Positions 11,719 to 48,054 of a DNA stretch of 56,836 nucleotides are shown here, piece by piece. Origin of the DNA: a virus; the IMG/VR virus record IMGVR_UViG_3300037147_000155, positions 1 through 56,836 of that record. The stretch is one strand, 5' to 3'. Below the pieces are notes generated by a model, which searched no databases, was not told the DNA's origin, and saw only the letters and a program-made list of their open reading frames with translations. Each line of letters opens with the position of its first letter. Within the stretch, counting starts at the first letter, position 1. The position numbers and the translations under genes were made by a program.

Positions 11719-12243
11719 ATGCCCTACTCACCTGAAACTCGAAAACAAAAGTCCCGTGAATACTACGAGCGCACTCGCGAGAAGGCGCTTGCTAGGCAGA
11801 AGGCCTACAGCGAGTCTCACAAAAAGGAACGCAAAGAGTACGTCGCTGCCAACCGCGAACTTGTTTATAAAGTAAACCGCGAGTGGCGTGAGCGTAACCG
11901 AGAACAGTGGCTTAAGATTTCTCGCAAAAAGAATCTCGCGTACCGGACTGGTTTGAAGGATGAGTTCATTGCGGCCTATGGCAGTCGTTGTGCGTGCTGT
12001 GGTGAGGACTATCGAGAGTTTCTAACTGTTGATCACATTGGTGGCGGTGGTGCTACCGAACGGCGCACACTGGGTTGGCGCGGGTTAGGTGCAGCTTTTT
12101 ATTTGCATCTCAAGAAGCTTGGATGGCCGAAGGATCGCTATCGGCTTCTGTGTATGAACTGCAATTTTGCGACGCGGAATGGTAAGCCATGTCCGCATAC
12201 GACAGAGTCCACGCTTCATGTTGTCGAAGGACTAGTCTGCTAA
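11719..12243 (+). CDS. HNH homing endonuclease (between scaffold and capsid)
   Basis: A 174-residue protein. The basic N-terminal half (KQKSREYYERTREKALARQK) is a likely DNA-recognition helix region. The nuclease part has CACCGEDYREFLTVDHIGGG (zinc knuckle, then the catalytic D-H) and LLCMNCNFATRNGKPCPH (second knuckle with N). The same fold and spacing recur in the HNH gene at 41935-42384. Free-standing HNH genes are mobile; this one splits the scaffold-capsid pair without breaking either. Its AT-richer codon use differs from the neighbours. Confidence 0.85.
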   Translation: MPYSPETRKQKSREYYERTREKALARQKAYSESHKKERKEYVAANRELVYKVNREWRERNREQWLKISRKKNLAYRTGLKDEFIAAYGSRCACCGEDYREFLTVDHIGGGGATERRTLGWRGLGAAFYLHLKKLGWPKDRYRLLCMNCNFATRNGKPCPHTTESTLHVVEGLVC

Positions 12244-13808: not shown

Positions 13809-15062
13809 GTGTCAACTTTGGTAGGGGACATTGTGCAGCAATTTAGGGACCTTGCTCAAGACCCCCCGCAGACCCTTGCGGCCCCCGGCATCACTGCGCT
13901 CACCGCCATCTCAACGGTGGGCGGTACCATTCCCCTCGGCACCTACTATCTAGTCTTGACCATCTACAACCAGTGGGGCGAGACAGTTGCATCGAACGAG
14001 CAGTCGGCCACCCTTAGCGGAATCCAAAATTCCATCCAGATCACCTGGACCTCTGCACCCCTTGGTTCCATCGCTGGAGGACTGCGAGCTTATATCGGCC
14101 TCGCAGCGGCAGCCGAGAACTCCTATATACCCTTCTCATTCCCGGCCAGCCAACCGCTACTGCTGACCTCCCCCGGTACGAATGCCGGTGCGCCCCCTGC
14201 GACCTCAACCGCCTACCTGCCCGACACCGATGGCAGCTATGTGAGGGCGAGCCCAGTTTTCAGGTGGCTCAACGATGCCCTGCGCCAGGGGAGTCGTCTA
14301 ATGAATGGCTTCACCGATTACTCAGGCTTCCCCTCGACGATCAACTTTGCGACCTACCTCATCACCGGCGAGTGGACCAAGATGACCCAGGCTTGGTATG
14401 ACGGCTACCCAGTCTCATTCGCGCCCACATCTGGCTTCTTCAAACGCAACACGGTGACCAGCTCAATCCTTGCAGGCTGGTCGATCTCGTTCTACAACAA
14501 CCAACTGGGCGTCGAGGTCTGGCCACAACCCGCTCGCACCGCCACAGTGACCTCACTCGCGCTACCGATGCTGCCCACCGACACCGTGGCCACCCTGACC
14601 TCCACTGGCGGCTTCCTGCTGCCTACCTACGGCATGGTCCAGTTCGGCACCGAAATCTGCGCCTACAACGGCATCAGCGGCAATCAGCTGATTGGCCTGC
14701 TGAGGGGCCTCGGTGGCACTGCGGCCTCTGCGTGGGCCGCATCCACGCCAGCCACCGAACTCAACGCGTTCTTCCAAGGCAAGCGAGTGTTCAACACTCA
14801 GTACACTCCAGGTCAGGCATCCCTCAACCTGCCGATCCCCGCTGGCATGGACGGCATCTTGATCAACTTTCTTATGAGCAAGTTCCTCGAAACTGAACGC
14901 GACTGGCAAGGCGCGAAGGCCAAAATGGACTCCTTCACTGCGCAAATTAAAGACTACATGCGCATGAACCGGCAGATCGCCGGACCCGTTCAGGCAGGGT
15001 CACGCGACTACCAATTTGTCGTTTTCGGGGGGACCCGGTTTGGTGGTACAATTCTGCCATGA
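13809..15062 (+). CDS. head-tail connector/tail tubular-type structural protein
   Basis: A 417-residue product. The N-terminus, TLVGDIVQQFRDLAQDPPQT, resembles the start of connector (adaptor) proteins. Residues 25-110 look like an inserted fibronectin/Ig-like domain (GTYYLVLTIYNQWGETVASN). The rest carries connector-like features (FRWLNDALRQGSRLMNG) and a C-terminal helix region (FLMSKFLETERDWQGAKAKM). Order after capsid and before the nozzle-like protein fits a head completion or tail-tube role. The start is GTG after TTGAGGAGCATCGAGC. Confidence 0.65.
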   Translation: MSTLVGDIVQQFRDLAQDPPQTLAAPGITALTAISTVGGTIPLGTYYLVLTIYNQWGETVASNEQSATLSGIQNSIQITWTSAPLGSIAGGLRAYIGLAAAAENSYIPFSFPASQPLLLTSPGTNAGAPPATSTAYLPDTDGSYVRASPVFRWLNDALRQGSRLMNGFTDYSGFPSTINFATYLITGEWTKMTQAWYDGYPVSFAPTSGFFKRNTVTSSILAGWSISFYNNQLGVEVWPQPARTATVTSLALPMLPTDTVATLTSTGGFLLPTYGMVQFGTEICAYNGISGNQLIGLLRGLGGTAASAWAASTPATELNAFFQGKRVFNTQYTPGQASLNLPIPAGMDGILINFLMSKFLETERDWQGAKAKMDSFTAQIKDYMRMNRQIAGPVQAGSRDYQFVVFGGTRFGGTILP

Positions 15063-15787
15063 AACCTACAATCATTTACGCGCTTGTTGATCCACGAGAT
15101 CAATCTATTCGTTACGTTGGCAAGACAGTAAACAAACGCTGTCGTATGTCTGTGCATCGCTGGGCCGCAGGGAAGGGCTCTAAGCGAATGATGTGGCTCT
15201 TGGACCTCGTGAAGTTAGGGCTCCAGGCAGAGTTCAGGGTGCTAGAAACTGTTGAGGGGGATGCTTGGATCGAACGAGAGCGTTACTGGATCAAATATTA
15301 TCGAGACCTTGGTGCTCCACTCACAAACATTCGAGATGGTGGAGACACTAATCATCCCGACAACGAAGAACTCCGCAAGTGGCGGAGCAAATTCATGACC
15401 GGCCATACCCTCTCAGCAGAGTCACGTCACAAGATCAGTGTGGCTAACTCGGGCAGAGTTCGTTCGGCTGAATGGCGTGAGAAGCTCTCTGCTGGAATGC
15501 GTGGTCGTGTGATGCCGGAGGAACAACGCCAACGCATGATTGGCAGGAAGCAGTCTACTGAAACTGTAGCAAAGAGAGTGGCCCACTATAAGGATCGTGG
15601 ACTGTATAAATCTGAGGAAGCTCACCAACGCGTGATTGCTGGCTCCCGTAAACACTGGACTGGTAGGAAGCGCTCAGATGAGCAGAAGGCTAAGATTCGG
15701 GAGTCACTCAGGCAATATTGGGCTAATCTTACTCCCGAACGTAAAGCTGAGATCGAATCACAAACTCTTCGGAGGCGTTGGGCGTAA
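15059..15787 (+). CDS. GIY-YIG homing endonuclease with NUMOD3 repeats
   Basis: A 242-residue protein. The N-terminal nuclease domain begins IIYALVDPRDQSIRYVGKTV, the GIY and YVG strands, followed by a conserved E-R-E-R-Y-W-I helix (WIERERYWIKYYRDLG). The second half carries several NUMOD3-type DNA-binding repeats (RHKISVANSGRVRSAEWREK; KAKIRESLRQYWANLTPERK). This is the modular design of T4 Seg-type enzymes. It is inserted between two tail genes by overlaps at both ends (ATGA; TAATG), leaving both intact. Codon use is AT-richer than the neighbours. Confidence 0.9.
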   Translation: MKPTIIYALVDPRDQSIRYVGKTVNKRCRMSVHRWAAGKGSKRMMWLLDLVKLGLQAEFRVLETVEGDAWIERERYWIKYYRDLGAPLTNIRDGGDTNHPDNEELRKWRSKFMTGHTLSAESRHKISVANSGRVRSAEWREKLSAGMRGRVMPEEQRQRMIGRKQSTETVAKRVAHYKDRGLYKSEEAHQRVIAGSRKHWTGRKRSDEQKAKIRESLRQYWANLTPERKAEIESQTLRRRWA

Positions 15788-27801: not shown

Positions 27802-28740
27802 ATGATTAAACGATCCTTGATACTGTTGACGCTAATCATTGGCCTGACTCTGACCGCTCAGGCGCAGACCGCTGGTACGCAAGTTGGCCGGGTGTCTTTA
27901 ACCCAAGGAGCGTCGGTAAGTCAGCAAGGATACATAGCTGGAGGCTCAATCATTCTTGGTCAGCTTGTCACCATCAATTCATCGGGGCAGGTAATCGCCG
28001 CGACGACTTCCACAACCGATGGGGTCATCGGCGTCGCCAAGAATAGTGGGACAACCTCACAGCCAGTAGATGTAGCCCTAATCGGGCAGGTAGCTGCCTT
28101 ATCAGATGGTACCTGCTCACAAGGTCAACTACTGCAAATTTCCATTATCTCTGCTGGGCGTGTTAACTGTACACCGTCTATCATCAATCAGCAAATCGGT
28201 ATAAGCGATTCCAGCGTAGCTGGACCGGGAAATATCACCGCGGTATTGACAGGTGGCGGGTCGTCTGGCAGCAGTGGTGGCGCGAACACGACGCTATCGA
28301 ACCTCGGCACGACGGCTCTTAACGCCGATCTGATGTGCGCCACCGCAGGGAGCTGCAACCTTGGATCCGCCGCGGATCCAGTCAACGGAGTCTACTTGAA
28401 ATTCTTCCAGCTGAATACTCCAGGGGCGCTGATACTCGGCTACCCTGGTCCCTGCGCTGCCCCCGGCCCCAGCCAAATCGGCTCATGTTTTGGCGACTCC
28501 AATGGGGCGATCGATGATTGGGATGGCTATTCGGCTACCTTTAGGCCTCACGCGCTGGCGCTCGTGCCGGGCACCTTCGCGGCCTTGAGCGCTGAGTATC
28601 CCTGTCCTGGCTCGGAAGGGCAAGGGGGTTCAGTAACCGACTCGACCACGAACACATGGGGGGCGACAGTAGTCGGCGGCGGGGCGGATCATGTTCTGGC
28701 GTACTGTGACGGCAGCGCTTGGACTGTCGCGGCTAAATAA
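27802..28740 (+). CDS. secreted small fibre-like protein
   Basis: The start follows GAGGCGGCT and gives the signal peptide MIKRSLILLTLIIGLTLTAQ, cleaved near AQA. The 312-residue product begins with a head-fibre-like beta domain (GGSIILGQLVTINSSGQVIA; DGVIGVAKNSGTTSQPVDVA), the pattern of phage DUF2190-type decoration proteins, then a Ser/Gly linker and a C-terminal domain ending WTVAAK. The last codons are echoed after the inserted HNH gene at 29270. Confidence 0.65.
   Translation: MIKRSLILLTLIIGLTLTAQAQTAGTQVGRVSLTQGASVSQQGYIAGGSIILGQLVTINSSGQVIAATTSTTDGVIGVAKNSGTTSQPVDVALIGQVAALSDGTCSQGQLLQISIISAGRVNCTPSIINQQIGISDSSVAGPGNITAVLTGGGSSGSSGGANTTLSNLGTTALNADLMCATAGSCNLGSAADPVNGVYLKFFQLNTPGALILGYPGPCAAPGPSQIGSCFGDSNGAIDDWDGYSATFRPHALALVPGTFAALSAEYPCPGSEGQGGSVTDSTTNTWGATVVGGGADHVLAYCDGSAWTVAAK
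28720..28740 (+). repeat. gene-end sequence duplicated around inserted HNH, left copy
   Basis: Codons for WTVAAK-stop end the gene at 28740. The same peptide-coding stretch, with synonymous changes, recurs at 29270-29290 on the other side of the HNH gene. This suggests recombination between related gene ends when the endonuclease cassette entered. Confidence 0.6.
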
Positions 28741-29245
28741 TATGACGCCAACTAATACGAAGCCTGATCTGAGAAATACTTTGCTTGTTGACGCCAAATC
28801 GTTGCGCCAAAACTTTCCCTGGCTCAATACTCTGCCTTATTTCGCGTACGGCTTCTTCCGTGAGTCTAGAGTTTCCACAAGTTTCCCCCCGCGGCATCTT
28901 CCCATTGCGATAAGCGTGCATCCAGTTTTCACGGCTAGTCATGTACTCCAAGTTTGCAGGCCAGCGATTATCTGTCTTCTTGCCATTCTTGTGATTGGCA
29001 GTATGTCCATCTGGGCACACCCCTACGAAACTTCCCATCACAAGAGAGTGAACTTTACGGTACGCGGTTTTTCCAGCGGCACTCAGGTGAACTACTTTGT
29101 ACCCATAGAAATCAATAGTGGGATTCAGAATCTTCCCAACATGGGTATGCGGACCTGGTGCTATCCTTCGTACGCGGCCTCTGTCAGAAACTTGGTAGTA
29201 ATCATCAAAGCCAAAAACTGGAAGCCATTTTTCGGAGTTACCCAT
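28733..29245 (-). CDS. NUMOD4-HNH homing endonuclease, antisense in tail region
   Basis: A 170-residue protein. The N-terminal NUMOD4 motif, EKWLPVFGFDDYYQVSDRGR, is followed by the HNH core (VHSLVMGSFVGVCPDGHTAN then HKNGKKTDNRWPANLEYMT). A C-terminal helix-turn-helix follows (LTEEAVREIRQSIEPGKVLA; RFGVNKQSISQIRLR). It lies opposite to the surrounding late genes, so it needs its own promoter. Its stop overlaps the end of the upstream gene by 8 bases. Coding composition is AT-richer than its neighbours, as expected for a mobile gene. Confidence 0.9.
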   Translation of the reverse strand: MGNSEKWLPVFGFDDYYQVSDRGRVRRIAPGPHTHVGKILNPTIDFYGYKVVHLSAAGKTAYRKVHSLVMGSFVGVCPDGHTANHKNGKKTDNRWPANLEYMTSRENWMHAYRNGKMPRGETCGNSRLTEEAVREIRQSIEPGKVLAQRFGVNKQSISQIRLRISWRHII

Positions 29246-38434: not shown

Positions 38435-38908
38435 ATGCCTCCTCTTAGAGACTTGAGTGGAATGAGATTCGGACTACTCCAACCCATGTGGCCCGCTGGG
38501 CATTTTAGCAAGTATCATAAGGTTATGTGGCTTTGCCAGTGCAGCGAAGGGAATCTCACCGTTGTATCCGCTGGAAACCTTTGTAACGGCCAAGTACTTT
38601 CCTGTGGATGTCTTCACGCGAACGCTGCCAAGAACCGTCATTTTATGGGAGGGATGAAACTCCCAGAACGCAGACTCTATTGGGCTGCCAAGGAGCGCTG
38701 CGGGAATCCACATAACAAGAGCTACAAGGATTATGGGGGCAGAGGTATCGAGTTTCGATTCAAGTCATTCGAGGAGTTTTACAAAGAACTCGGACCACGC
38801 CCCGCCCCACACCTGACTATTGACCGCATCGACAACGATGGTCATTACGAACCCGGCAACGTCCACTGGGCTACGCGCCTTGAGCAGCGGCATAACAGAA
38901 GGTCCTAG
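38435..38908 (+). CDS. HNH homing endonuclease, end of rightward block
   Basis: A 157-residue protein. WLCQCSEGNLTVVSAGNLCN and LSCGCLHANA form the N-terminal Cys-rich module. YWAAKERCGNPHNKSYKDYG then GRGIEF is the conserved recognition part, and LTIDRIDNDGHYEPGNVHWA the HNH core. This is the typical phage HNH architecture with two knuckles and 'SYKDYGGRGI'. It starts immediately after the papain-like stop and ends tail-to-tail with the leftward gene at 38905. Confidence 0.9.
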   Translation: MPPLRDLSGMRFGLLQPMWPAGHFSKYHKVMWLCQCSEGNLTVVSAGNLCNGQVLSCGCLHANAAKNRHFMGGMKLPERRLYWAAKERCGNPHNKSYKDYGGRGIEFRFKSFEEFYKELGPRPAPHLTIDRIDNDGHYEPGNVHWATRLEQRHNRRS

Positions 38909-39147: not shown

Positions 39148-39332
39148 TGATTCTGCCCCTGCTGCCAGTTGGTGCCAGCCTCCAGCCTGTGGACCTTAGT
39201 CTGCAGATCGACCACCTGTTGCTGCAACACCTTGATGGCCTGATGCAGCAGCCCATCGCTGTGATTGAGCTGCTCGCAGACCTTGACGAGATCTCGTAGG
39301 GGCTCATTTACTGTTGCGTATCCTTCAGCCAT
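39144..39332 (-). CDS. small coiled-coil protein (62 aa)
   Basis: It begins MAEGYATVNEPLRDLVKVCE and continues with a coiled coil (LHQAIKVLQQQVVDLQTKVH). The short dimerising helix lies directly after the DNA polymerase gene with an 8-base overlap. It may be a polymerase accessory or regulatory peptide. The start is supported only by overlap. Confidence 0.55.
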   Translation of the reverse strand: MAEGYATVNEPLRDLVKVCEQLNHSDGLLHQAIKVLQQQVVDLQTKVHRLEAGTNWQQGQNQ

Positions 39333-40590
39333 TCCACACCTCCATTCCAGTTGGATTTGAATCAGACCTTGGAGCCCAGTTGCCCCCGACTGCGCTCATG
39401 GATATCTCCGCGCCCACGCTCAGGCCACCCAGCTCGGGGATGGGCATGGTGAATATGCGCTGCAGGGTCGCTGCGGCCGCTGCAGCCTCGCTCTGGGGGA
39501 CATAACTCAACAGGTCGTCATGGACCGGCAGAACGCACCAGGAGGCCAGCGGGGTCTGCCACAGAGCCTCGATGTAGACATCCTGGATCGCCGAGGCCGT
39601 GCTCTGAGGCAGGAACGCTATGGCCCTCTTGGCGTCGTCGCCATTGGGCTCCCACCCTTGAGTCCTGCGATTGTAGTTGAACACATGGAAGAATCTGTGC
39701 CGGAAGCCAAAGGGATTCAGCAGGGAGCGATTAGGCGGGCCAGCCATGGTCAGCACCTGCCTCCACCAGCGCACGATGTCTTGGCCGGGCTCGGACGCCA
39801 AGTACACGTTCTGCAGCCTCCGTGCGTGGGCCACCGACTCGAAATCATCGGGGTACTCCTCGAACATCCGCTCGGGGGTGCCGCGATAGTTACTAAGATG
39901 CACAACTCTTTTAGCTGTCTCGCGGCTGGGCTTGTCGTAACGATGCTTGGCTTCTTGGCAGGCTGTCCTCAATGCTGCATCATCGAGGTGAAGATCAATC
40001 GCCTCATTATGGACCACGCTATTAAACCAGTCGTGAACGCCAGCCTTGGCCAGCGCGATGTATCGAGGGGACTGAGCGAAGTAGCCTACTAGGACTGCCT
40101 CGATCGCTGAGCTGTCACAAGCCATGATGACGTGGCCGGGCGGGGCGATGACCATCCTACGAAACTCGTCTGCGAGAGCCGACCTCTTAGGAATATTTTG
40201 GGCGTTTATGTTCCGGCAGGATTTCCTCCACGTACTCGGATGGTGCCCGATCGTGTAGTGGATGCGATTGTTTGCATCCAACTTCCACTTATAGGTCGAG
40301 ATCATCTTCCAGCGTTCCTTGCACGCGAGTACTTTCGCGAAGACGGGATACTTGCGGGCCGCCTTGAGCAGGAACTTTTTTTCTGTTGAGAGCGCGTTCT
40401 CATCATCGCTGTCTTTACGATGAGGGAGTCGCACGTTGAAGTGAGCCGCCAACGATTGAACTTCTAAATAGCTATCGGGATTGAAGTCGCAGACCTTGAC
40501 ATATTTGTTGGGCAAGGGAGGACGTTTGGCGCGAGGCTTCTTCACTGGGGCGCTGTCCAGCTCAGTCAGCAGGGTATCGATGTCAGACAA
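39325..40590 (-). CDS. family A DNA polymerase, polymerase domain only
   Basis: A 421-residue product. Thumb/palm features are YKWKLDANNRIHYTIGHHPS then RNINAQNIPK, motif A MACDSSAIEAVLVGYFA (Asp then E), motif B RETAKRVVHLSNYRGTPERM, and motif C VLPVHDDLLS (catalytic Asp pair). Motif A has ACDSS for the usual DYSQ, and motif B is unusual. There is no 3'-5' exonuclease here; it is in the upstream gene. The start is TTG with an 8-base overlap, so the two subunits may be made together. Confidence 0.85.
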   Translation of the reverse strand: MSDIDTLLTELDSAPVKKPRAKRPPLPNKYVKVCDFNPDSYLEVQSLAAHFNVRLPHRKDSDDENALSTEKKFLLKAARKYPVFAKVLACKERWKMISTYKWKLDANNRIHYTIGHHPSTWRKSCRNINAQNIPKRSALADEFRRMVIAPPGHVIMACDSSAIEAVLVGYFAQSPRYIALAKAGVHDWFNSVVHNEAIDLHLDDAALRTACQEAKHRYDKPSRETAKRVVHLSNYRGTPERMFEEYPDDFESVAHARRLQNVYLASEPGQDIVRWWRQVLTMAGPPNRSLLNPFGFRHRFFHVFNYNRRTQGWEPNGDDAKRAIAFLPQSTASAIQDVYIEALWQTPLASWCVLPVHDDLLSYVPQSEAAAAAATLQRIFTMPIPELGGLSVGAEISMSAVGGNWAPRSDSNPTGMEVWNG

Positions 40591-41938
40591 TCTCAGTCAC
40601 CCCAGTGAGATCCTTAGGAGCGCGCTTCCAGTATTTGCGCTTCTTGATGCTGTCGGGGACTAGTTGTTGAAGGTCAGCGTTCGCAGCTTCCCACTCTTGG
40701 TCCAGGCGATCCATGAATGCAGCCTGATAGACTGGATCCACAAGGAGTCCTCGTTCGCCCATCACTCGCAGCGGTTCATCCATGCGGATGCAGTGGCGTT
40801 CGAAGGCGGCCCAGCGGGATTGGGCAATGAGGGTGTCGCGGGTGCCGCAGTAAACATCCATCGTCACCGCGTTGTCCATGGCGTTGTAGAAGGCGGGTCG
40901 GGCGGCTGACTGGGACTTCCAAGGAGGGCCTGCGTAATAGAAGGGGGCCACTGCGCCAAGGCCCTTGCGGAGGTCGCTCTCCAGGAAGTGCCATGCCCAC
41001 ATTGAGGACACGATGCGCGCAGGGAGGCGCAACCCAGCGTGACGCAAACGCCTACTATCGAAGTTATTATCGGCATGTTCTATCACCTCCTCACTGAGGT
41101 CGAGGGCCTCCTGCAGCAGGCCAATGTAGGGTGGCTGCCAGGGGAAGGTCACCGCGCTGCCCCGCCGCACGCTGAAGCCTGCCCTTACGATGGTCCACGA
41201 TGCCCCCTCCTGTTCGATCTCCTCCTCGTCCAGGCGATCAGACTCTGGAGTCTCAATGTCGACCACGAGAGTAGGGATACGGCCGCCATGTTCACCGTGA
41301 ATGCTTTGGCCGCTTCGTATGTAATCGCGGACGCGATCCGGTGGCGGATCAAGTAAGAGATCATATTTGCTCTCCTGATAAGTACCTTGAGCAATCGAGC
41401 GGGCCCTGTTCAGCGCAAACACCGCCGACGCGTTCAACTTTTGCTGCCCCCGTTGGATGAAGGCTGGATGAAAAGTTGGAACGGCAGGGATTCCGTACGG
41501 CGTTGCCATGACATAACCCGCGTGGGACTCGATGCCCGATACCCCACATATTCGTCGTAGCGCAACGTTGCCCATTGGCACGATGACCTTAGGCTGGGCT
41601 CGCTCGATGAGTCCATCAAGATTAGGCCTACAATGGGTGATCGCGGCTTCGGCATCTCTGAACCTCTCCGGGAAATCCATCCATTTGAGTCGCAGTGGCT
41701 TACACCAGATGGTGTTGGAGGTCATCACATTCGACCTCTCGATGCCAACCAGGCTCAGCATGCGGTTATAGGTGAAGCCAGCGGCCCCGGCGAAGTTGCG
41801 GCCTGCGGCCATTTCCTCCATCCATGGGGAGTCGCCGACCAGCAAAACTCCTGAGTCACCAGAGCCGTCAGGTTCGATAAACCTCTGACCAAGTTCTCTG
41901 TGAGGACACGTTCCACAATGAGGGCCACTTGGAATCAC
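40583..41938 (-). CDS. fusion of family 4 type uracil-DNA glycosylase and 3'-5' exonuclease
   Basis: GTG 41938 overlaps the HNH stop. Residues 5-15 (GPHCGTCPHRE) give Fe-S-type Cys. GVLLVGDSPWMEEMAAGRNF with AGAAG is the UDG motif, then TSNTIWCKPLR, ITHCRPNLDGLI and VIVPMGNVALRRI. The second half is a DnaQ-like exonuclease: TLVVDIETPE (D-x-E), EHADNNFDSRRL, AWHFLESDLRKGL and YCGTRDTLIAQSRW. In all 451 residues. The polymerase domain follows as a separate frame, so this gene plus 39325-40590 equals UDG-Exo-PolA split in two. Confidence 0.8.
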   Translation of the reverse strand: MIPSGPHCGTCPHRELGQRFIEPDGSGDSGVLLVGDSPWMEEMAAGRNFAGAAGFTYNRMLSLVGIERSNVMTSNTIWCKPLRLKWMDFPERFRDAEAAITHCRPNLDGLIERAQPKVIVPMGNVALRRICGVSGIESHAGYVMATPYGIPAVPTFHPAFIQRGQQKLNASAVFALNRARSIAQGTYQESKYDLLLDPPPDRVRDYIRSGQSIHGEHGGRIPTLVVDIETPESDRLDEEEIEQEGASWTIVRAGFSVRRGSAVTFPWQPPYIGLLQEALDLSEEVIEHADNNFDSRRLRHAGLRLPARIVSSMWAWHFLESDLRKGLGAVAPFYYAGPPWKSQSAARPAFYNAMDNAVTMDVYCGTRDTLIAQSRWAAFERHCIRMDEPLRVMGERGLLVDPVYQAAFMDRLDQEWEAANADLQQLVPDSIKKRKYWKRAPKDLTGVTEIV

Positions 41939-42384
41939 TTGAGGCCCCCATGAGGGCAGTACCCATAGAATCCCAGAGACATATTGCAGTTGTGGCACAA
42001 CACACGAAATCCTCCCCGCTTTTCACGAAGCAGCCGTCCAACATATCCAGCTCCACTAGCTACAGACTTTCTATGTTGCTTTCCCCCACCATTAACGTGA
42101 TCGATAGCCATGAACTCAAAAGTGGCCTCACCACAGCAGGCGCACTTGCCGCCATACATCTCGATCATCTTTTTTCGATTAGACTGCCGCAATTTAGACA
42201 GCTTGCTAAGGTGAGCAACGTACTTAATAGGGTCATTGCGGATAGATAGGTAATACTGGCTCTTTTTAGCCTTACCCGCAACGCTACGACTCCATTTTAG
42301 CTTGTGAGCGTTCAATCGGAAGTGATTCTCTCGATAGTACTTCTTCGACCATGCACGCCTCTTCTCTGGAGTGTTATGGGGCAT
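41935..42384 (-). CDS. HNH homing endonuclease upstream of UDG-Exo
   Basis: A 149-residue protein, a paralogue of the HNH gene at 11719-12243. The basic N-terminus (KRRAWSKKYYRENHFRLNAH) is followed by KCACCGEATFEFMAIDHVNG and LCHNCNMSLGFYGYCPHGG. Its ATG shares a base with the stop of the +1-shifted tail of the upstream gene (TAATG), and its stop overlaps the start of UDG-Exo (GTGA). The insertion is thus exactly seated between two replication genes. Confidence 0.9.
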   Translation of the reverse strand: MPHNTPEKRRAWSKKYYRENHFRLNAHKLKWSRSVAGKAKKSQYYLSIRNDPIKYVAHLSKLSKLRQSNRKKMIEMYGGKCACCGEATFEFMAIDHVNGGGKQHRKSVASGAGYVGRLLREKRGGFRVLCHNCNMSLGFYGYCPHGGLK

Positions 42385-42472
42385 TAGAAGGGCATCTCCT
42401 CGCCAGGCTCATCCTCATCGCGCTCGGGGTTAGGTGCCTGCTCAACTGCTGGATTGCTGAACCCAGGTCTCC
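42384..42472 (-). other. orphan SSB-like acidic C-terminal tail in the +1 frame
   Basis: A frame that opens after a TAG and has no start encodes SGRPGFSNPAVEQ followed by APNPERDEDEPGEEMPF and TAA. The acidic stretch ending in M-P-F is very like the protein-binding tip of single-stranded DNA-binding proteins. The TAA overlaps the HNH ATG. It can only be translated as a continuation of the gene at 42442-43521 through a +1 shift, for example at AGT-TGA-G, where skipping one base passes the stop. Confidence 0.6.
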
Positions 42473-43521
42473 CTGACTATGATCGTGCCATCGGGGTTGG
42501 GGACTGGATCGATAGTTCGCTCGGGGAGGCCAGTCGTCCACAGGCTGCGACGGATATACTCGTCCCAGGTACGCTGTGGCGGCTCCACAACGTCCCTGAT
42601 CGTGCCGTCGAGAGGATTGAGTATTCGCAGGGGTGGGAGCTCCTGAAGTTGTGGGGCGTCTTCTGCCCCAGGCACTCCAATATTGGTCAGCCTGACCTGA
42701 TTGCGAGGATTGTCAGCCATCGCTGCCTCGTAGGCGGTCCAGTTGAGTGCGACAGTCTCCGGATTGACGTTGACGTATTGCAGGATTGGTTGGGCAGCCA
42801 ACTCGGCAGCGGTCCAACCACGCTCCGCGGGTGGCATGGGGGCCTGCCACACTTCCTGATTAGTCTCAATAGGGATAGGAGCGCCAACCATTCCCGCAGT
42901 CATTGCAGGACGGCCCCAAATGTCGCGCACGGCATAAGTCGCATTGGTGGCAGTTTGCTGTACATTGTCCCGCTGTCTGGCTGCGAGATACTCTCGCGTA
43001 GGAGTATCGTCCCATGGATAGGGTCCACCAAGCGTGGGCATGGGGACGAACCGTGCCCAGTCCACTTGATCCTGCTCACGGATCATCTCGTTCCGCACCA
43101 TGGTGATACACTCTGCGATACCCCAATCTAGATGCGCCCTCTGCATGCTGACGACACGATTACGGAAGCCCGCAGTGCGGTCAGGGTTGGGAAGCGGTCG
43201 CGTCGTCGGCGCTGTGGGGGGCCCTGCGGTTGCAGGGATTGAGGAGGCTTCCTGATCATCCATATCCTGCCTGATGCCCACCACTGCACCCCGGCCGAAT
43301 CGACCCTCAATGGCTGCATATAACCGATTACGCCAATTTAAGGCGACCTCTGCAGGATCAGCGGGGACAGGAGGGCGCTGGCCACCCTCCTCAGCAATCT
43401 CAGCCAACCGCTCCAGCGCGTCGGCAATGCGATTGGCCGCGGTCAGCAGGGGCTCTAGGTCGACCGACTCATCGACCTGTGCGTTCTGCCATATCTCGCT
43501 GACTGCCTTGGTGATGTTCAC
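42442..43521 (-). CDS. hypothetical replication-region protein, may extend by frameshift to 42384
   Basis: A 359-residue zero-frame product. The N-terminal region is helical (NITKAVSEIWQNAQVDESVD; AANRIADALERLAEIAEEGG). Residues 60-125 are linker-like, and the rest is Pro- and Trp-rich with no recognised domain. It ends WVQQSSS. A +1 shift before or at the stop would replace this end with an acidic SSB-type tail that fits the next gene's start. This would make it a DNA-metabolism protein that docks partners. The start ATG has GGAGGCCACGATC upstream. Confidence 0.65.
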   Translation of the reverse strand: MNITKAVSEIWQNAQVDESVDLEPLLTAANRIADALERLAEIAEEGGQRPPVPADPAEVALNWRNRLYAAIEGRFGRGAVVGIRQDMDDQEASSIPATAGPPTAPTTRPLPNPDRTAGFRNRVVSMQRAHLDWGIAECITMVRNEMIREQDQVDWARFVPMPTLGGPYPWDDTPTREYLAARQRDNVQQTATNATYAVRDIWGRPAMTAGMVGAPIPIETNQEVWQAPMPPAERGWTAAELAAQPILQYVNVNPETVALNWTAYEAAMADNPRNQVRLTNIGVPGAEDAPQLQELPPLRILNPLDGTIRDVVEPPQRTWDEYIRRSLWTTGLPERTIDPVPNPDGTIIVRETWVQQSSS

Positions 43522-43533
43522 GATCGTGGCCTC

Positions 43534-43770
43534 CTAGTTGAGTTCCGAACTTTGCGGTGGGGACTGTTCGTGAGGCGCTTTCTGCCTCCTGACATCCCCA
43601 TACATGGCCAAACTCCCTTCCTCCCCTGCATCCTCGGGCAGCATCCCATGGACAACCGCTCCGATCTCGGTGCCCATCCGCGTGGCCACCTGCTCCTTGG
43701 ACTCCCCCTCCACCGTGGCTGTGATCTCGACGTAGAGGTGAACGAGGAAGCGATGGAGGATAGCCGTCAC
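43534..43770 (-). CDS. hypothetical protein (78 aa)
   Basis: It begins MTAILHRFLVHLYVEITATV. A beta-helix-beta beginning (HLYVEITATVEGESKEQVAT then RMGTEIGAVV) is followed by an acidic, unstructured tail (EDAGEEG...QSSELN). The 4-base overlap with the phosphatase gene shows co-translation. No family is recognised. Confidence 0.55.
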   Translation of the reverse strand: MTAILHRFLVHLYVEITATVEGESKEQVATRMGTEIGAVVHGMLPEDAGEEGSLAMYGDVRRQKAPHEQSPPQSSELN

Positions 43771-44252
43771 TTGGACTCCTCACTGGCGAAGCCAGTCCAG
43801 GTACGGTTCAGGCCAAAATTCAGCCAGTCGCGATATCCAAATCGCAGCGCCTCATCCATGGCGGCCTCCTTGGACCAGTCACAGCTGACCACGCGGTAGG
43901 CGGCTACCACGAGCCCTGTGCGATCCTGACCGTGCTGACAGTGGACCAGCGCTGGCTTGGGAGCCTGAGCGATCGTCTCCAGGATCACTTCGAGCGCGCC
44001 CTGGGTGATGCCGATGGCATAAATCTGCCATGCTGAGATCGGCCTGGAGATGACGCCGGTTGGCTCCAGCTCAACCGCCTCCCGCTCGTCCTCGGCGAGG
44101 CCCTCTAAGCTGATCACTGACCTAAATTGTGCTCGGATGGCCGCGAATGCTGCCTCACCGGCTGGCCTGGCGCTACGCCATAGGTCATCGGTTACGCGGG
44201 TGAATGGAGTCGGAGCTGCCAAAGGACCCTCCACCTGAGGGACTTGGACCAT
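43767..44252 (-). CDS. dual-specificity/tyrosine-type protein phosphatase
   Basis: The start at 44252 is fixed by AAGGAGACATAAA directly upstream; the longer frame has no site. The 161-residue product has DDLWRSARPAGEAAFAAIRA (the usual 'vyRs.qP' entry of DSP-like proteins), SVISLEGLAEDE and the signature VHCQHGQDRTGLVV (Cys105, Arg111 of C-x5-R). The general acid would be an Asp/Glu near 70-75. In a phage it may act on host phospho-proteins, nucleotides or phosphoinositols. Confidence 0.8.
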   Translation of the reverse strand: MVQVPQVEGPLAAPTPFTRVTDDLWRSARPAGEAAFAAIRAQFRSVISLEGLAEDEREAVELEPTGVISRPISAWQIYAIGITQGALEVILETIAQAPKPALVHCQHGQDRTGLVVAAYRVVSCDWSKEAAMDEALRFGYRDWLNFGLNRTWTGFASEESK

Positions 44253-44253
44253 T

Positions 44254-44622
44254 TTATGTCTCCTTGGGAGCCGCTCTCCATTTCCCCGGTTTCGCAGGTT
44301 CAATTCCTGATTTCAGGATGTAATGACAAGCGGCGCATGTAATCCAACCTTCGTCCTTCATCGACACTTCAAATGAGGTACCCTCGCCACATCGGGGACA
44401 GGGATATGAACAACTGTTAATGACCAAAAACTGACGGAACGTAAGCTGATTCGTAGGAGTGGGCGCTATGTTCCCGCCTGCCATCGCCCACCACTCCGCG
44501 AATTCAACAAACAGATGGATGTTGGAATAGGTTCGCCAATCCCTGCCAGTTTCCTCGCAAAACGACTGCCATTGTCCCTGCTCGCTTACGTCCTCTGGCT
44601 TGCTCGCTCGCTCATCGGTCAT
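44254..44622 (-). CDS. zinc-ribbon protein (122 aa)
   Basis: The start at 44622 follows AAGGAGCCATTCG. The N-terminal half is helical (QWQSFCEETGRDWRTYSNIH; FVEFAEWWAMAGG). The second half carries YPCPRCGEGTSFEVSMKDEG and TCAACHYILK, a classical C-x2-C...C-x2-C zinc ribbon. It overlaps the upstream lipoprotein gene by 4 bases (ATGA) and lies two bases before the phosphatase. The role is unknown; a nucleic-acid-binding or protein-docking factor. Confidence 0.65.
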   Translation of the reverse strand: MTDERASKPEDVSEQGQWQSFCEETGRDWRTYSNIHLFVEFAEWWAMAGGNIAPTPTNQLTFRQFLVINSCSYPCPRCGEGTSFEVSMKDEGWITCAACHYILKSGIEPAKPGKWRAAPKET

Positions 44623-45151: not shown

Positions 45152-45568
45152 CTATACCGCTGACTTCCTTGCTTGATAACGATCCCGGCTTTCTGTTAGA
45201 AGTCGCTCTCTATGACGCATGTACCATTTATGCTTCTTCTGTCTTAACAACTCAGTATGCCGAGACGGCTGGGCATTGCGGCAGGTAACACACTCTCTGG
45301 TACCGTTGGGTCGTTCGTATAGATTAGGCCCTTCTAGCTTGTGTCCCTTACCGCAATGATGTACGTCGATGATCCGCAACGCCGCATGAAGTGATTGATG
45401 CTCATGCTTCGTCAGCAGTTGAAGGTTCGATGGGTCGTTGTTGGTCGGGTCGCCGTCGACGTGATGCACTACTTCGTAGCGACTGTCCAACTTACGACCC
45501 ACCAATCGTCTAACAATACCGCGAGCCCGATGGCGACTTGCGGAATGCTTCTTACTGAACTCCCTCAT
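45152..45568 (-). CDS. HNH endonuclease
   Basis: A 138-residue protein. The N-terminus is basic (KKHSASRHRARGIVRRLVGR). YEVVHHVDGDPTNNDPSNLQ is the HNH core (H-H...N...N-L) and LLTKHEHQSLH follows. The C-terminal half has a zinc ribbon (HHCGKGHKLEG and ECVTCRNAQPS) and a basic helix. This is the HNH_3-type homing endonuclease layout. TGGAGTGTAGAA before the ATG overlaps the end of the SSB-like gene. Confidence 0.85.
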   Translation of the reverse strand: MREFSKKHSASRHRARGIVRRLVGRKLDSRYEVVHHVDGDPTNNDPSNLQLLTKHEHQSLHAALRIIDVHHCGKGHKLEGPNLYERPNGTRECVTCRNAQPSRHTELLRQKKHKWYMRHRERLLTESRDRYQARKSAV

Positions 45569-45570
45569 TT

Positions 45571-46182
45571 CTACACTCCATTACTGCTAGGCAATTTGAA
45601 GGAGATTATCCGCTCCTTTCCATAAGCTGAGTCTCCAGATTCAGGAAAGGTCACAGTTTGTGTGTAGCGGCCATCGGCTCCCTTTGGCCATGCGATATCC
45701 ACCTTGCCATTCTTGCGAGCCTTCTTTCGTGGATTGGTCGAGGCAGTTTCTCCGGTGTCTCGTGAAAAGGCCTCCCATCCGATCACCGCCTCCCCCCTGG
45801 CCCTGCCATCAGCGGCCTGCAGCGCTGCCACGATGGATCGATTGTTGGCTGCGTCCGCCTTGATGCCCAGGCAGCGAAGTAACTCTGCCCCGTCGCTGTT
45901 GGCCATCTTGGGGTGCTTATAGAAGGAGGCTCGCAGAAATTTCACCCTCACCCCCTCGGGCTTCTCTGCGGTGGCTATCTCGGCTTCGAAGGTGACGTTA
46001 AGGTATGGCCTCCCTTCGACCACCATCTTATCGAACGGCTCCGCTGCGAGGTGGAAGATGAATGGATGCCTGCCTGGATATACCTGCGGCGGAAAGCTCC
46101 CCGACTCTGGGGCGTCGTAATTTATCTCAACCTCGGGCTCCGCGTCCAGGGTGGACAACAATGTCTCTAGATCGTCAGCCAC
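45571..46182 (-). CDS. probable single-stranded DNA-binding (OB-type) protein
   Basis: A 203-residue product, GTG start after AAGGAGGTGAAATA. The N-terminus is acidic (DDLETLLSTLDAEPEVEINY). It is then beta-rich: YPGRHPFIFHLAAEPFDKMV, YLNVTFEAEIA, GVRVKFLRASFYKHPKMANS then ELLRCLGI, a helix and strands again, ending RIISFKLPSSNGV. This resembles phage proteins of the replication block annotated as ssDNA-binding. No acidic C-terminal tip is present, unlike the frame at 42384. The neighbours support a DNA replication or recombination role. Confidence 0.6.
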   Translation of the reverse strand: MADDLETLLSTLDAEPEVEINYDAPESGSFPPQVYPGRHPFIFHLAAEPFDKMVVEGRPYLNVTFEAEIATAEKPEGVRVKFLRASFYKHPKMANSDGAELLRCLGIKADAANNRSIVAALQAADGRARGEAVIGWEAFSRDTGETASTNPRKKARKNGKVDIAWPKGADGRYTQTVTFPESGDSAYGKERIISFKLPSSNGV

Positions 46183-46400: not shown

Positions 46401-46615
46401 TATGCGACCTCCTGTGTCTGAGTCGCAGGCGTGAATGTAGATGCAGGCTTAGTGCTGCGCTGCGCTTTGACTCTCTTGGCAACGGACTTACTGGGGGTGT
46501 AGAACCGCTCCCTGACCACATCCTGCACCAGCTGATAGACTGCCTTCACCTCTCCTGAATCGCCTGACCTGAAGAACTCCAGTATCGCTCCAGCCCTACT
46601 TCGCCGTCGTGGCAC
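46400..46615 (-). CDS. small basic protein (71 aa)
   Basis: It begins at GTG after GGAGGCAATCA, overlapping the ATPase end by 20 bases. MPRRRSRAGAILEFFRSGDS, then a helical part (VYQLVQDVVRERFYTPSKSV) and a basic Thr/Ala-rich C-terminus. Nucleic acid contact is plausible. It lies between the P-loop ATPase and the Acb2-like gene. No family is recognised. Confidence 0.6.
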   Translation of the reverse strand: MPRRRSRAGAILEFFRSGDSGEVKAVYQLVQDVVRERFYTPSKSVAKRVKAQRSTKPASTFTPATQTQEVA

Positions 46616-47531
46616 TGATTGCCTCCTTTGGGGCCGCGGCCCCCTTCATTGATTCGAGTAAATCATACAGTTTTCCTAAGTCAGGTGGGTCCATATATGG
46701 CTGTCCACCCATGGCCTTGCTAAACTCCCCCGCCTTGTCGAATGGTACTCTGACCTTGGCTGGGAATGGAATCTTAGCGATGACATCCGCGTGTGGTTGA
46801 ATATACATCACCCTACGCTGGAGATGATTAATCTGCTTAGTAGCGGGGTCTGCTACCTCAGTCACCAACATTTCTAAGTGGATCATATTGCCGAACCACT
46901 GACCTGCCTTGCCGGTAGACTTCTTGCCTACGATCGATGGGCCATAGGTGGGCGATTTCGTCCCCTCCTCCTCGCCGCGGCCCTCCAGGGCGGTCCAGAT
47001 CACTCGCTCGACTGGCAGCATGGACGACTTCACAACGAAATCGTAGATGCGATTTTGGATCTCGCCATAGTAGCTCATGTTGGTGCCGGAGAATTCTGTC
47101 TTCCCGTCAACGTAGGTATATGCCGGATCCTGACTCAAGCGCTTCTTGGTGTGGCTTAGGTGCCGCATCATGATATCCCCGAACGAGGTTAGGCCCTCGA
47201 ACACATATAGGCCGATGTCTTGACCACCTGCGGACGGAGCGCCTGGCGACACCAAGAATCCCTTATCGTCGGGCCAATACCCCTGTGCTACCTTATCGAG
47301 TGTCTCAATGGGGTATGGGTCATTCGCCACCACGAACGGTATCACGATCCCCTCATCGACCAGGCTGCCCATGGTATCGAATCCACCGGTGTCGCCTGCC
47401 ACGAGGCGGGTCCGCTTGCCGAACTTGTCCCACATCCTTCGGGCCGCGATGGCGCATTGATGAGTTTTACCGCAACCCGTGTTTCCGTATAGGGCGTCGG
47501 CCACAAACCTTGCTCTGGGCTGAAGGGTCAT
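46596..47531 (-). CDS. P-loop ATPase, Sak4/AAA_24-like recombination candidate
   Basis: The start at 47531 follows AAGGGAGGACAGCCG. The 311-residue product has Walker A LYGNTGCGKTHQCAIAARR (near residues 15-33) and a RecA-like order: TRLVAGDTGGFDTMGSLVDE, then a DIGLYVFEGLTSFGDIMMRH Walker-B region, and RVIWTALEGRGEEEGTKSPT further on. This matches phage nucleotide-binding proteins of the AAA_24 or Sak4 type, single-strand annealing-related factors. Neighbouring SSB-like and nuclease genes support recombination or replication. Confidence 0.7.
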   Translation of the reverse strand: MTLQPRARFVADALYGNTGCGKTHQCAIAARRMWDKFGKRTRLVAGDTGGFDTMGSLVDEGIVIPFVVANDPYPIETLDKVAQGYWPDDKGFLVSPGAPSAGGQDIGLYVFEGLTSFGDIMMRHLSHTKKRLSQDPAYTYVDGKTEFSGTNMSYYGEIQNRIYDFVVKSSMLPVERVIWTALEGRGEEEGTKSPTYGPSIVGKKSTGKAGQWFGNMIHLEMLVTEVADPATKQINHLQRRVMYIQPHADVIAKIPFPAKVRVPFDKAGEFSKAMGGQPYMDPPDLGKLYDLLESMKGAAAPKEAISATTAK

Positions 47532-47572
47532 CGGCTGTCCTCCCTTGCTGACCGCTTTGTGGTCAGGGTCAT
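47528..47572 (-). CDS. 14-codon bridging ORF between two genes
   Basis: MTLTTKRSAREDSR begins at an ATG sharing a base with the upstream stop (TAATG) and ends at a TGA overlapping the ATG of the ATPase gene (ATGA). It fills the 40-base gap exactly, which favours translational coupling across it. No separate function is implied. Confidence 0.4.
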   Translation of the reverse strand: MTLTTKRSAREDSR

Positions 47573-48054
47573 TAATCACGCTCCTTATCGGAGCCCAACA
47601 CTGCGCGGACATTCTTAGTGAACACATGCGTCTTCAGAGGCCTACCTGTGCCGCGATCCCTAACTCTGCCGCCTGGCCTGCCTGATGCGATCTTCTGACA
47701 CGCAGACGGATGCTTCAACGTATACCTGCCAGGCTCAAAAGTGGCCCCGCGATCGAACGACACCACTTCCCTGCTCAAGTGCTCGGGGACCATGAGCCTG
47801 GTGGCAACATTCCCCTTGATGAGGTATGCGGTCGAGGTGGCAATGATGACTCCATCGAGGTGCATGGCTCGTTTGCAGGCCACCGCCATGGCGCACCCCG
47901 CGTGCTTCTTGCGCTCGCTCGTGCTCACGTCCCTGCGAGTGACCTCAACCACCGCATCCTCGCTGGCATCCTCTACACTCTCCACGTTGGGAAAATACAT
48001 CCTCACGCGAGTCAATGCATTGGTGGTACCGACCTTCCTTGCTCTGCTGCTCAT
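47572..48054 (-). CDS. hypothetical basic protein (160 aa)
   Basis: GAGGAGGGTAGC precedes the ATG. It has a basic N-terminus (SSRARKVGTTNALTRVRMYF), an alpha/beta centre (AMAVACKRAMHLDGVIIATS; STAYLIKGNVATRLMVPEHL) and a basic end with GRPGGRVRDRGTGR. The 'KKHAGCAMAVACKRA' helix and its following strands suggest an RNase H-like or resolvase-type small fold, but no catalytic set is visible. Neighbours: HTH protein upstream, ATPase downstream. Confidence 0.6.
   Translation of the reverse strand: MSSRARKVGTTNALTRVRMYFPNVESVEDASEDAVVEVTRRDVSTSERKKHAGCAMAVACKRAMHLDGVIIATSTAYLIKGNVATRLMVPEHLSREVVSFDRGATFEPGRYTLKHPSACQKIASGRPGGRVRDRGTGRPLKTHVFTKNVRAVLGSDKERD

Follow-up and report, generated by a model that had tools for sequence, protein, structure and literature searches.

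Why should a phage gene stop just short of an acidic tail that lies open in its neighbouring reading frame, and what would such a tail be for? The question is raised by a gene in a 56.8-kb phage contig, which was analysed over its whole length of 56,836 nucleotides (the window); its late-gene half lies on the plus strand and its replication module, to which the gene belongs, on the minus strand (Table 1).

Table 1. Coordinates in the window of the tail gene, its extension and the neighbouring replication genes
Feature	Position	Strand	Remarks
DNA polymerase A domain	39325..40590	-	
UDG-like/3'-5' exonuclease part of family A polymerase	40583..41998	-	syntenic anchor, 72% identical to G001
Free-standing HNH endonuclease (Endonuclease VII/HNH)	41935..42384	-	inserted precisely at the junction of tail gene and UDG gene
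+1-frame extension (E)QAPNPERDEDEPGEEMPF-TAA	42384..42441	-	SSB-tip-like
Stretch that must hold the change of frame	42442..42477	-	between +1 TAG and zero-frame TGA
Tail-bearing gene	42442..43521	-	359 aa in the zero frame; starts with GTG, stops with TGA
SSB-like protein, resembling OB-fold proteins	45571..46182	-	no acidic tip; ends KLPSSNGV
Sak4-like ssDNA annealing protein	46596..47627	-	phrog_124, E 8e-9

The tail gene and its +1-frame extension

Translated as given, the zero frame of the tail gene yields a protein without a tip, ending in RETWVQQSSS before the TGA at 42444-42442. The +1 frame is open from a TAG at 42479-42477 to a TAA at 42386-42384 and reads into EQAPNPERDEDEPGEEMPF, so that acidic residues are followed by a hydrophobic-Pro-Phe end (DEDEPGEEMPF); its TAA shares the letters TAATG with the ATG of the HNH gene, a one-base overlap. 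The first-pass annotation had described the TGA after AGT, the +1 continuation and the TAATG overlap, and in coordinates and reading it was correct, but its statement that every other gene pair overlaps in this manner was too strong, gaps in the cluster ranging from -64 to +2268 nt. The only start codon in the +1 stretch is the final ATG (that of MPF), and the tail is therefore reachable only from the upstream gene; a separate open reading frame or re-initiation is rejected on the same ground.

The remainder of the protein is less informative. No Pfam, PHROG or NCBIfam family matches it, and its predicted structure (mean pLDDT 36.5) says nothing for or against an OB-fold. While the first 50 amino acids or so are common to an orthologue in the nearest relative (G001, see below), the middle part of about 300 amino acids is unique: no homology to it was found elsewhere in the window, in G001 or in phage records.

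It could be argued that the +1 tail is just downstream sequence without meaning, acidic by accident, as it comprises just 19-20 codons and its tip differs from the canonical DDDIPF. However, the six frames of the window contain six endings of the type 'PF-stop' that follow on 18 or more open codons, and of these no other than this tail is strongly acidic (net charge -6); none of 60 simulated windows, matched to the real one in dinucleotide make-up, contained a PF-stop ending at net -4 or beyond; moreover, the orthologue ends alike at the corresponding syntenic position. The acidic tail is not due to chance, an explanation we regard as extremely improbable. Measured against the codon usage of the phage itself, the zero frame is coding-like until about 42468-42444 and the +1 frame is coding-like from there; the best switch point, which this measure resolves to no better than about 25 nt, falls by preference into the last 25 nt or so before the TGA.

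The tip in the nearest relative

When IMG/VR was scanned with the UDG/exonuclease protein, it yielded G001 (IMGVR_UViG_3300036790_000209), in which a 146-aa gene (L002:886-1326), directly upstream of the UDG/exonuclease-polymerase gene, is the orthologue of the tail gene (38% identity in the first 50 residues; E 5e-5). It ends in the zero frame with SAPVREDDLPF, its acidic residues and hydrophobic-Pro-Phe end (REDDLPF) being read in frame, and its TGA overlaps the TTG with which the UDG gene begins. Since this orthologue carries the acidic tip in frame, the tip evidently belongs to the gene family as its normal C-terminus, and the window copy has lost the frame just before it. The proposal that the tail looks like the partner-docking tip of SSB is thus supported as a resemblance, by one in-frame orthologue. 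Relatives whose zero-frame end lacks an acidic tail had been named as evidence that would refute the proposal; the outcome is mixed, as G001 indeed ends in the zero frame but does have the acidic tail.

No close relatives of the tail gene product (searched by protein) or of the tail (searched by degenerate DNA) were found in IMG/VR, and among the more distant relatives, reached via polymerase, UDG, Sak4 and capsid proteins, the tail gene was found in none besides G001. Because the family diverges fast, this absence is weak evidence. An invented short coiled/tip peptide, used as a tblastn query, gave chance matches only.

Several further differences between the two genomes were noted. Homology of the UDG-like protein to G001 begins at about residue 21. 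In the window, the UDG/exonuclease and polymerase parts (39325-41998) are encoded by two overlapping reading frames, in G001 by two separate ones and in several relatives (L006, L014, L015 and L017) by a single one; by eye, the polymerase of L006 seems to contain an intein. Several free-standing HNH/GIY-YIG-like endonuclease genes, some recognised by eye, occupy gene junctions of the window at 11719-12243, 15059-15787, 28733-29245, 38435-38908, 41935-42384 and 45152-45568. Those at 11719 and 41935 are related to each other (29% identity, E 2e-14), and G001 has an endonuclease gene at neither of these two junctions.

Origin of the frame break

The first-pass annotation had likened AGT-TGA-G to the +1 shift of RF2, and with the prfB frameshift (PMC12421855) the locus does share a UGA stop and coding which continues in the +1 frame. 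The resemblance goes no further. In the RF2 motif, AGGGGG is followed after 3 nt by CTTTGAC (PMC12421855), whereas the site here is AGC AGT TGA G: no codon capable of re-pairing (CUU, or CCC/UUU) precedes the stop, the AGU tRNA suffering a middle mismatch on GUU; between the nearest purine-rich element, AGGGAG, and the AGT downstream of it lie 21 nt, not 3; and the UGA is followed by G instead of C. Neither is the break conserved, the sole orthologue found being in frame throughout. The AGU, the spacing and the UGA-G speak against an RF2-type site, and the comparison finds no support in re-pairing, structure or conservation either.

A programmed shift of another kind would let a fraction of the ribosomes move by +1 (or -2) near the TGA, giving a minor form with the tip and a major form without it. 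Several observations agree with such a mechanism: both frames are coding-like, each on its own side of the junction, the tail is undecayed and coupled by TAATG to the next gene, the stop is a UGA, and phages do use +1 shifts, as in Listeria phages PSA, A118 and A500 at CCC_UGA (or CCC) (PMC5009743). These phages resemble our case in having a phage gene with a +1 continuation at a stop, yet their shifts occur in capsid and tail genes, whereas here AGU_UGA terminates a gene of the replication module. More weight should be given to the absence of any known +1 signal: besides the AGU, the distant SD-like element and the UGAG already discussed, P-site codons of the prfB, PSA or antizyme type before the stop are absent, and the stop has none of the features in the +1 rules of PRFect (three identical bases, CUU* or UCC*), a program which seeks three or four identical bases and whose authors discuss CUU* and UCC* (PMC10885494). 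Full re-pairing within the eligible stretch is offered by AGG_G at 42474 alone, which precedes the common codon GAG and not a stop or a rare codon, and which codon usage favours less as a shift point. Shuffled versions of the RNA at the junction fold better than the RNA itself (z +1.87), so that no stimulatory structure is evident; as Rfam gave no match there either, a known RNA element or structure is rejected as the cause. The same holds for a tandem repeat or phase variation, the junction containing no tandem repeat. Considering also that the tip is in frame in G001, we regard a programmed shift as possible but unsupported, and as unlikely; that the phage keeps an SSB docking tip on a separate protein and sets its dose through an unconventional +1 shift at AGU-UGA is very unlikely.

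Recombination could also have truncated or rebuilt the gene, the unique middle part or the inserted HNH gene having come in out of frame and orphaned an old tip. The roughly 300 aa of middle sequence that have no counterpart in G001 would fit, as would the HNH gene, which starts inside the stop codon of the tip, is missing from the G001 junction and has counterparts at further junctions of the window genome. The zero frame, however, keeps a coding-like codon usage until roughly 25 nt before the TGA, which places the switch at a distance of some 60 nt or more from the start of the HNH gene and well past most of the middle region; we therefore hold this origin to be quite unlikely.

The frame break is best explained by an ordinary indel, with a probability of about 0.75 for the natural and the artefactual variants together. 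The tail gene would belong to a small family of the phage replication module whose C-terminus is an SSB-like tip, and a net +1 change within the last 35 nt or so before the present stop would have shifted this tip out of frame, caused either by a real mutation in the phage (or the strain dominating the sample) or by a single-base slip in assembly or sequencing. The in-frame tip of G001, an acidic tail beyond chance with coding-like codons and the lack of a recoding signal favour such an indel. The break is the only one seen among about 30 collinear genes shared with G001 (blastp, all stop-to-stop ORFs of the window), and the large GeneTack survey took singleton frameshifts to be indels or errors, indel mutations being more likely near 3' ends (PMC3711429). 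It should be noted that the tail sequence shows no decay, which counts against an indel: a natural one must be recent, or the tip must still be made. It also counts against it that the comparison covers a single orthologue and that a search for a near-identical record in which to check the base found none.

As to the two variants, a real mutation seems somewhat likelier than an assembly or sequencing error. An exact direct repeat of 126 bp at the contig ends (8-133 and 56711-56836, the first seven bases differing) suggests a circular or complete genome and a short-read assembly, such an overlap being, by inference, typical of de Bruijn assembly. Single-base indel errors are uncommon in short-read de Bruijn assemblies; a one-base error is hence possible but not expected, and given that no other shared gene is broken, it would need some luck to occur here.

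SSB-like proteins and the putative docking tip

If the tip is the normal end of the tail gene family, it has to be asked what it might bind, and which protein of the phage would otherwise carry it. Just downstream of the Sak4-like gene, with two small ORFs in between, lies an orphan gene for a 203-aa protein (45571-46182), homologues of which adjoin Sak4 in related contigs. The protein matches no family in Pfam (including DUF669), PHROG or NCBIfam, but its model (pLDDT 80.6) has PrgE as best match (Z 7.9), followed by RPA, PriB and SSBs (Z about 4), below the secure level of the tool; its resemblance to OB-fold ssDNA-binding proteins is suggestive rather than secure. Like the SSB-like protein of G001, it lacks an acidic C-terminal tip. 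Among homologues with a complete C-terminus, the only tip is found in G010 (IMGVR_UViG_3300044517_000018), where the protein encoded at L048:484-1161 ends in NHDAEVSDAPPF (SDAPPF). Several relatives contain CxxC pairs, which could form a zinc ribbon. A gene for a tyrosine/dual-specificity phosphatase (43767-44303) was also noted inside the replication module.

In phage HK620, a DUF669 SSB encoded next to sak4 ends in NDYPPF, and removal of its last six residues lowers Sak4 recombineering about tenfold and abolishes binding of Sak4 to SSB-coated ssDNA (PMC5928155). The window is similar in that a Sak4-like gene lies near an SSB-like gene with a putative OB fold, the end SDAPPF in G010 resembling that of HK620; it differs in that the SSB-like proteins of the window and of G001 have no tip and no match to Pfam DUF669. 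Compared with the SSB C-termini of E. coli (DDDIPF) and HK620 (PMC5928155), the tail likewise has a short acidic stretch and a hydrophobic-Pro-Phe end in a module with Sak4, SSB and polymerase, but it is situated on a separate protein and not on the putative OB-fold protein, and in the window it is out of frame. By analogy, the tip of intact family members would dock a partner in replication or recombination, plausibly the Sak4 or the polymerase encoded nearby, in the way that the HK620 SSB tip docks Sak4. It is a reasonable inference from two genomes that the lineage of the window and G001 has its docking tip on a separate protein instead of the SSB, and the tip may have moved from one to the other. 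In the window, the tip would survive only if the frame break is artefactual or bypassed.

Taken by itself, the frame break is most probably an ordinary one; were it programmed, it would represent a +1 site without any known signal. What is unusual and worthwhile here is the tip on a protein other than the SSB, and not the frameshift. Should the tip indeed act from a protein of its own in phages with a tipless SSB, the SSB docking peptide would be a movable module, and the arrangement would allow the recruitment of Sak4 recombinases to ssDNA to be tested in a simple manner.
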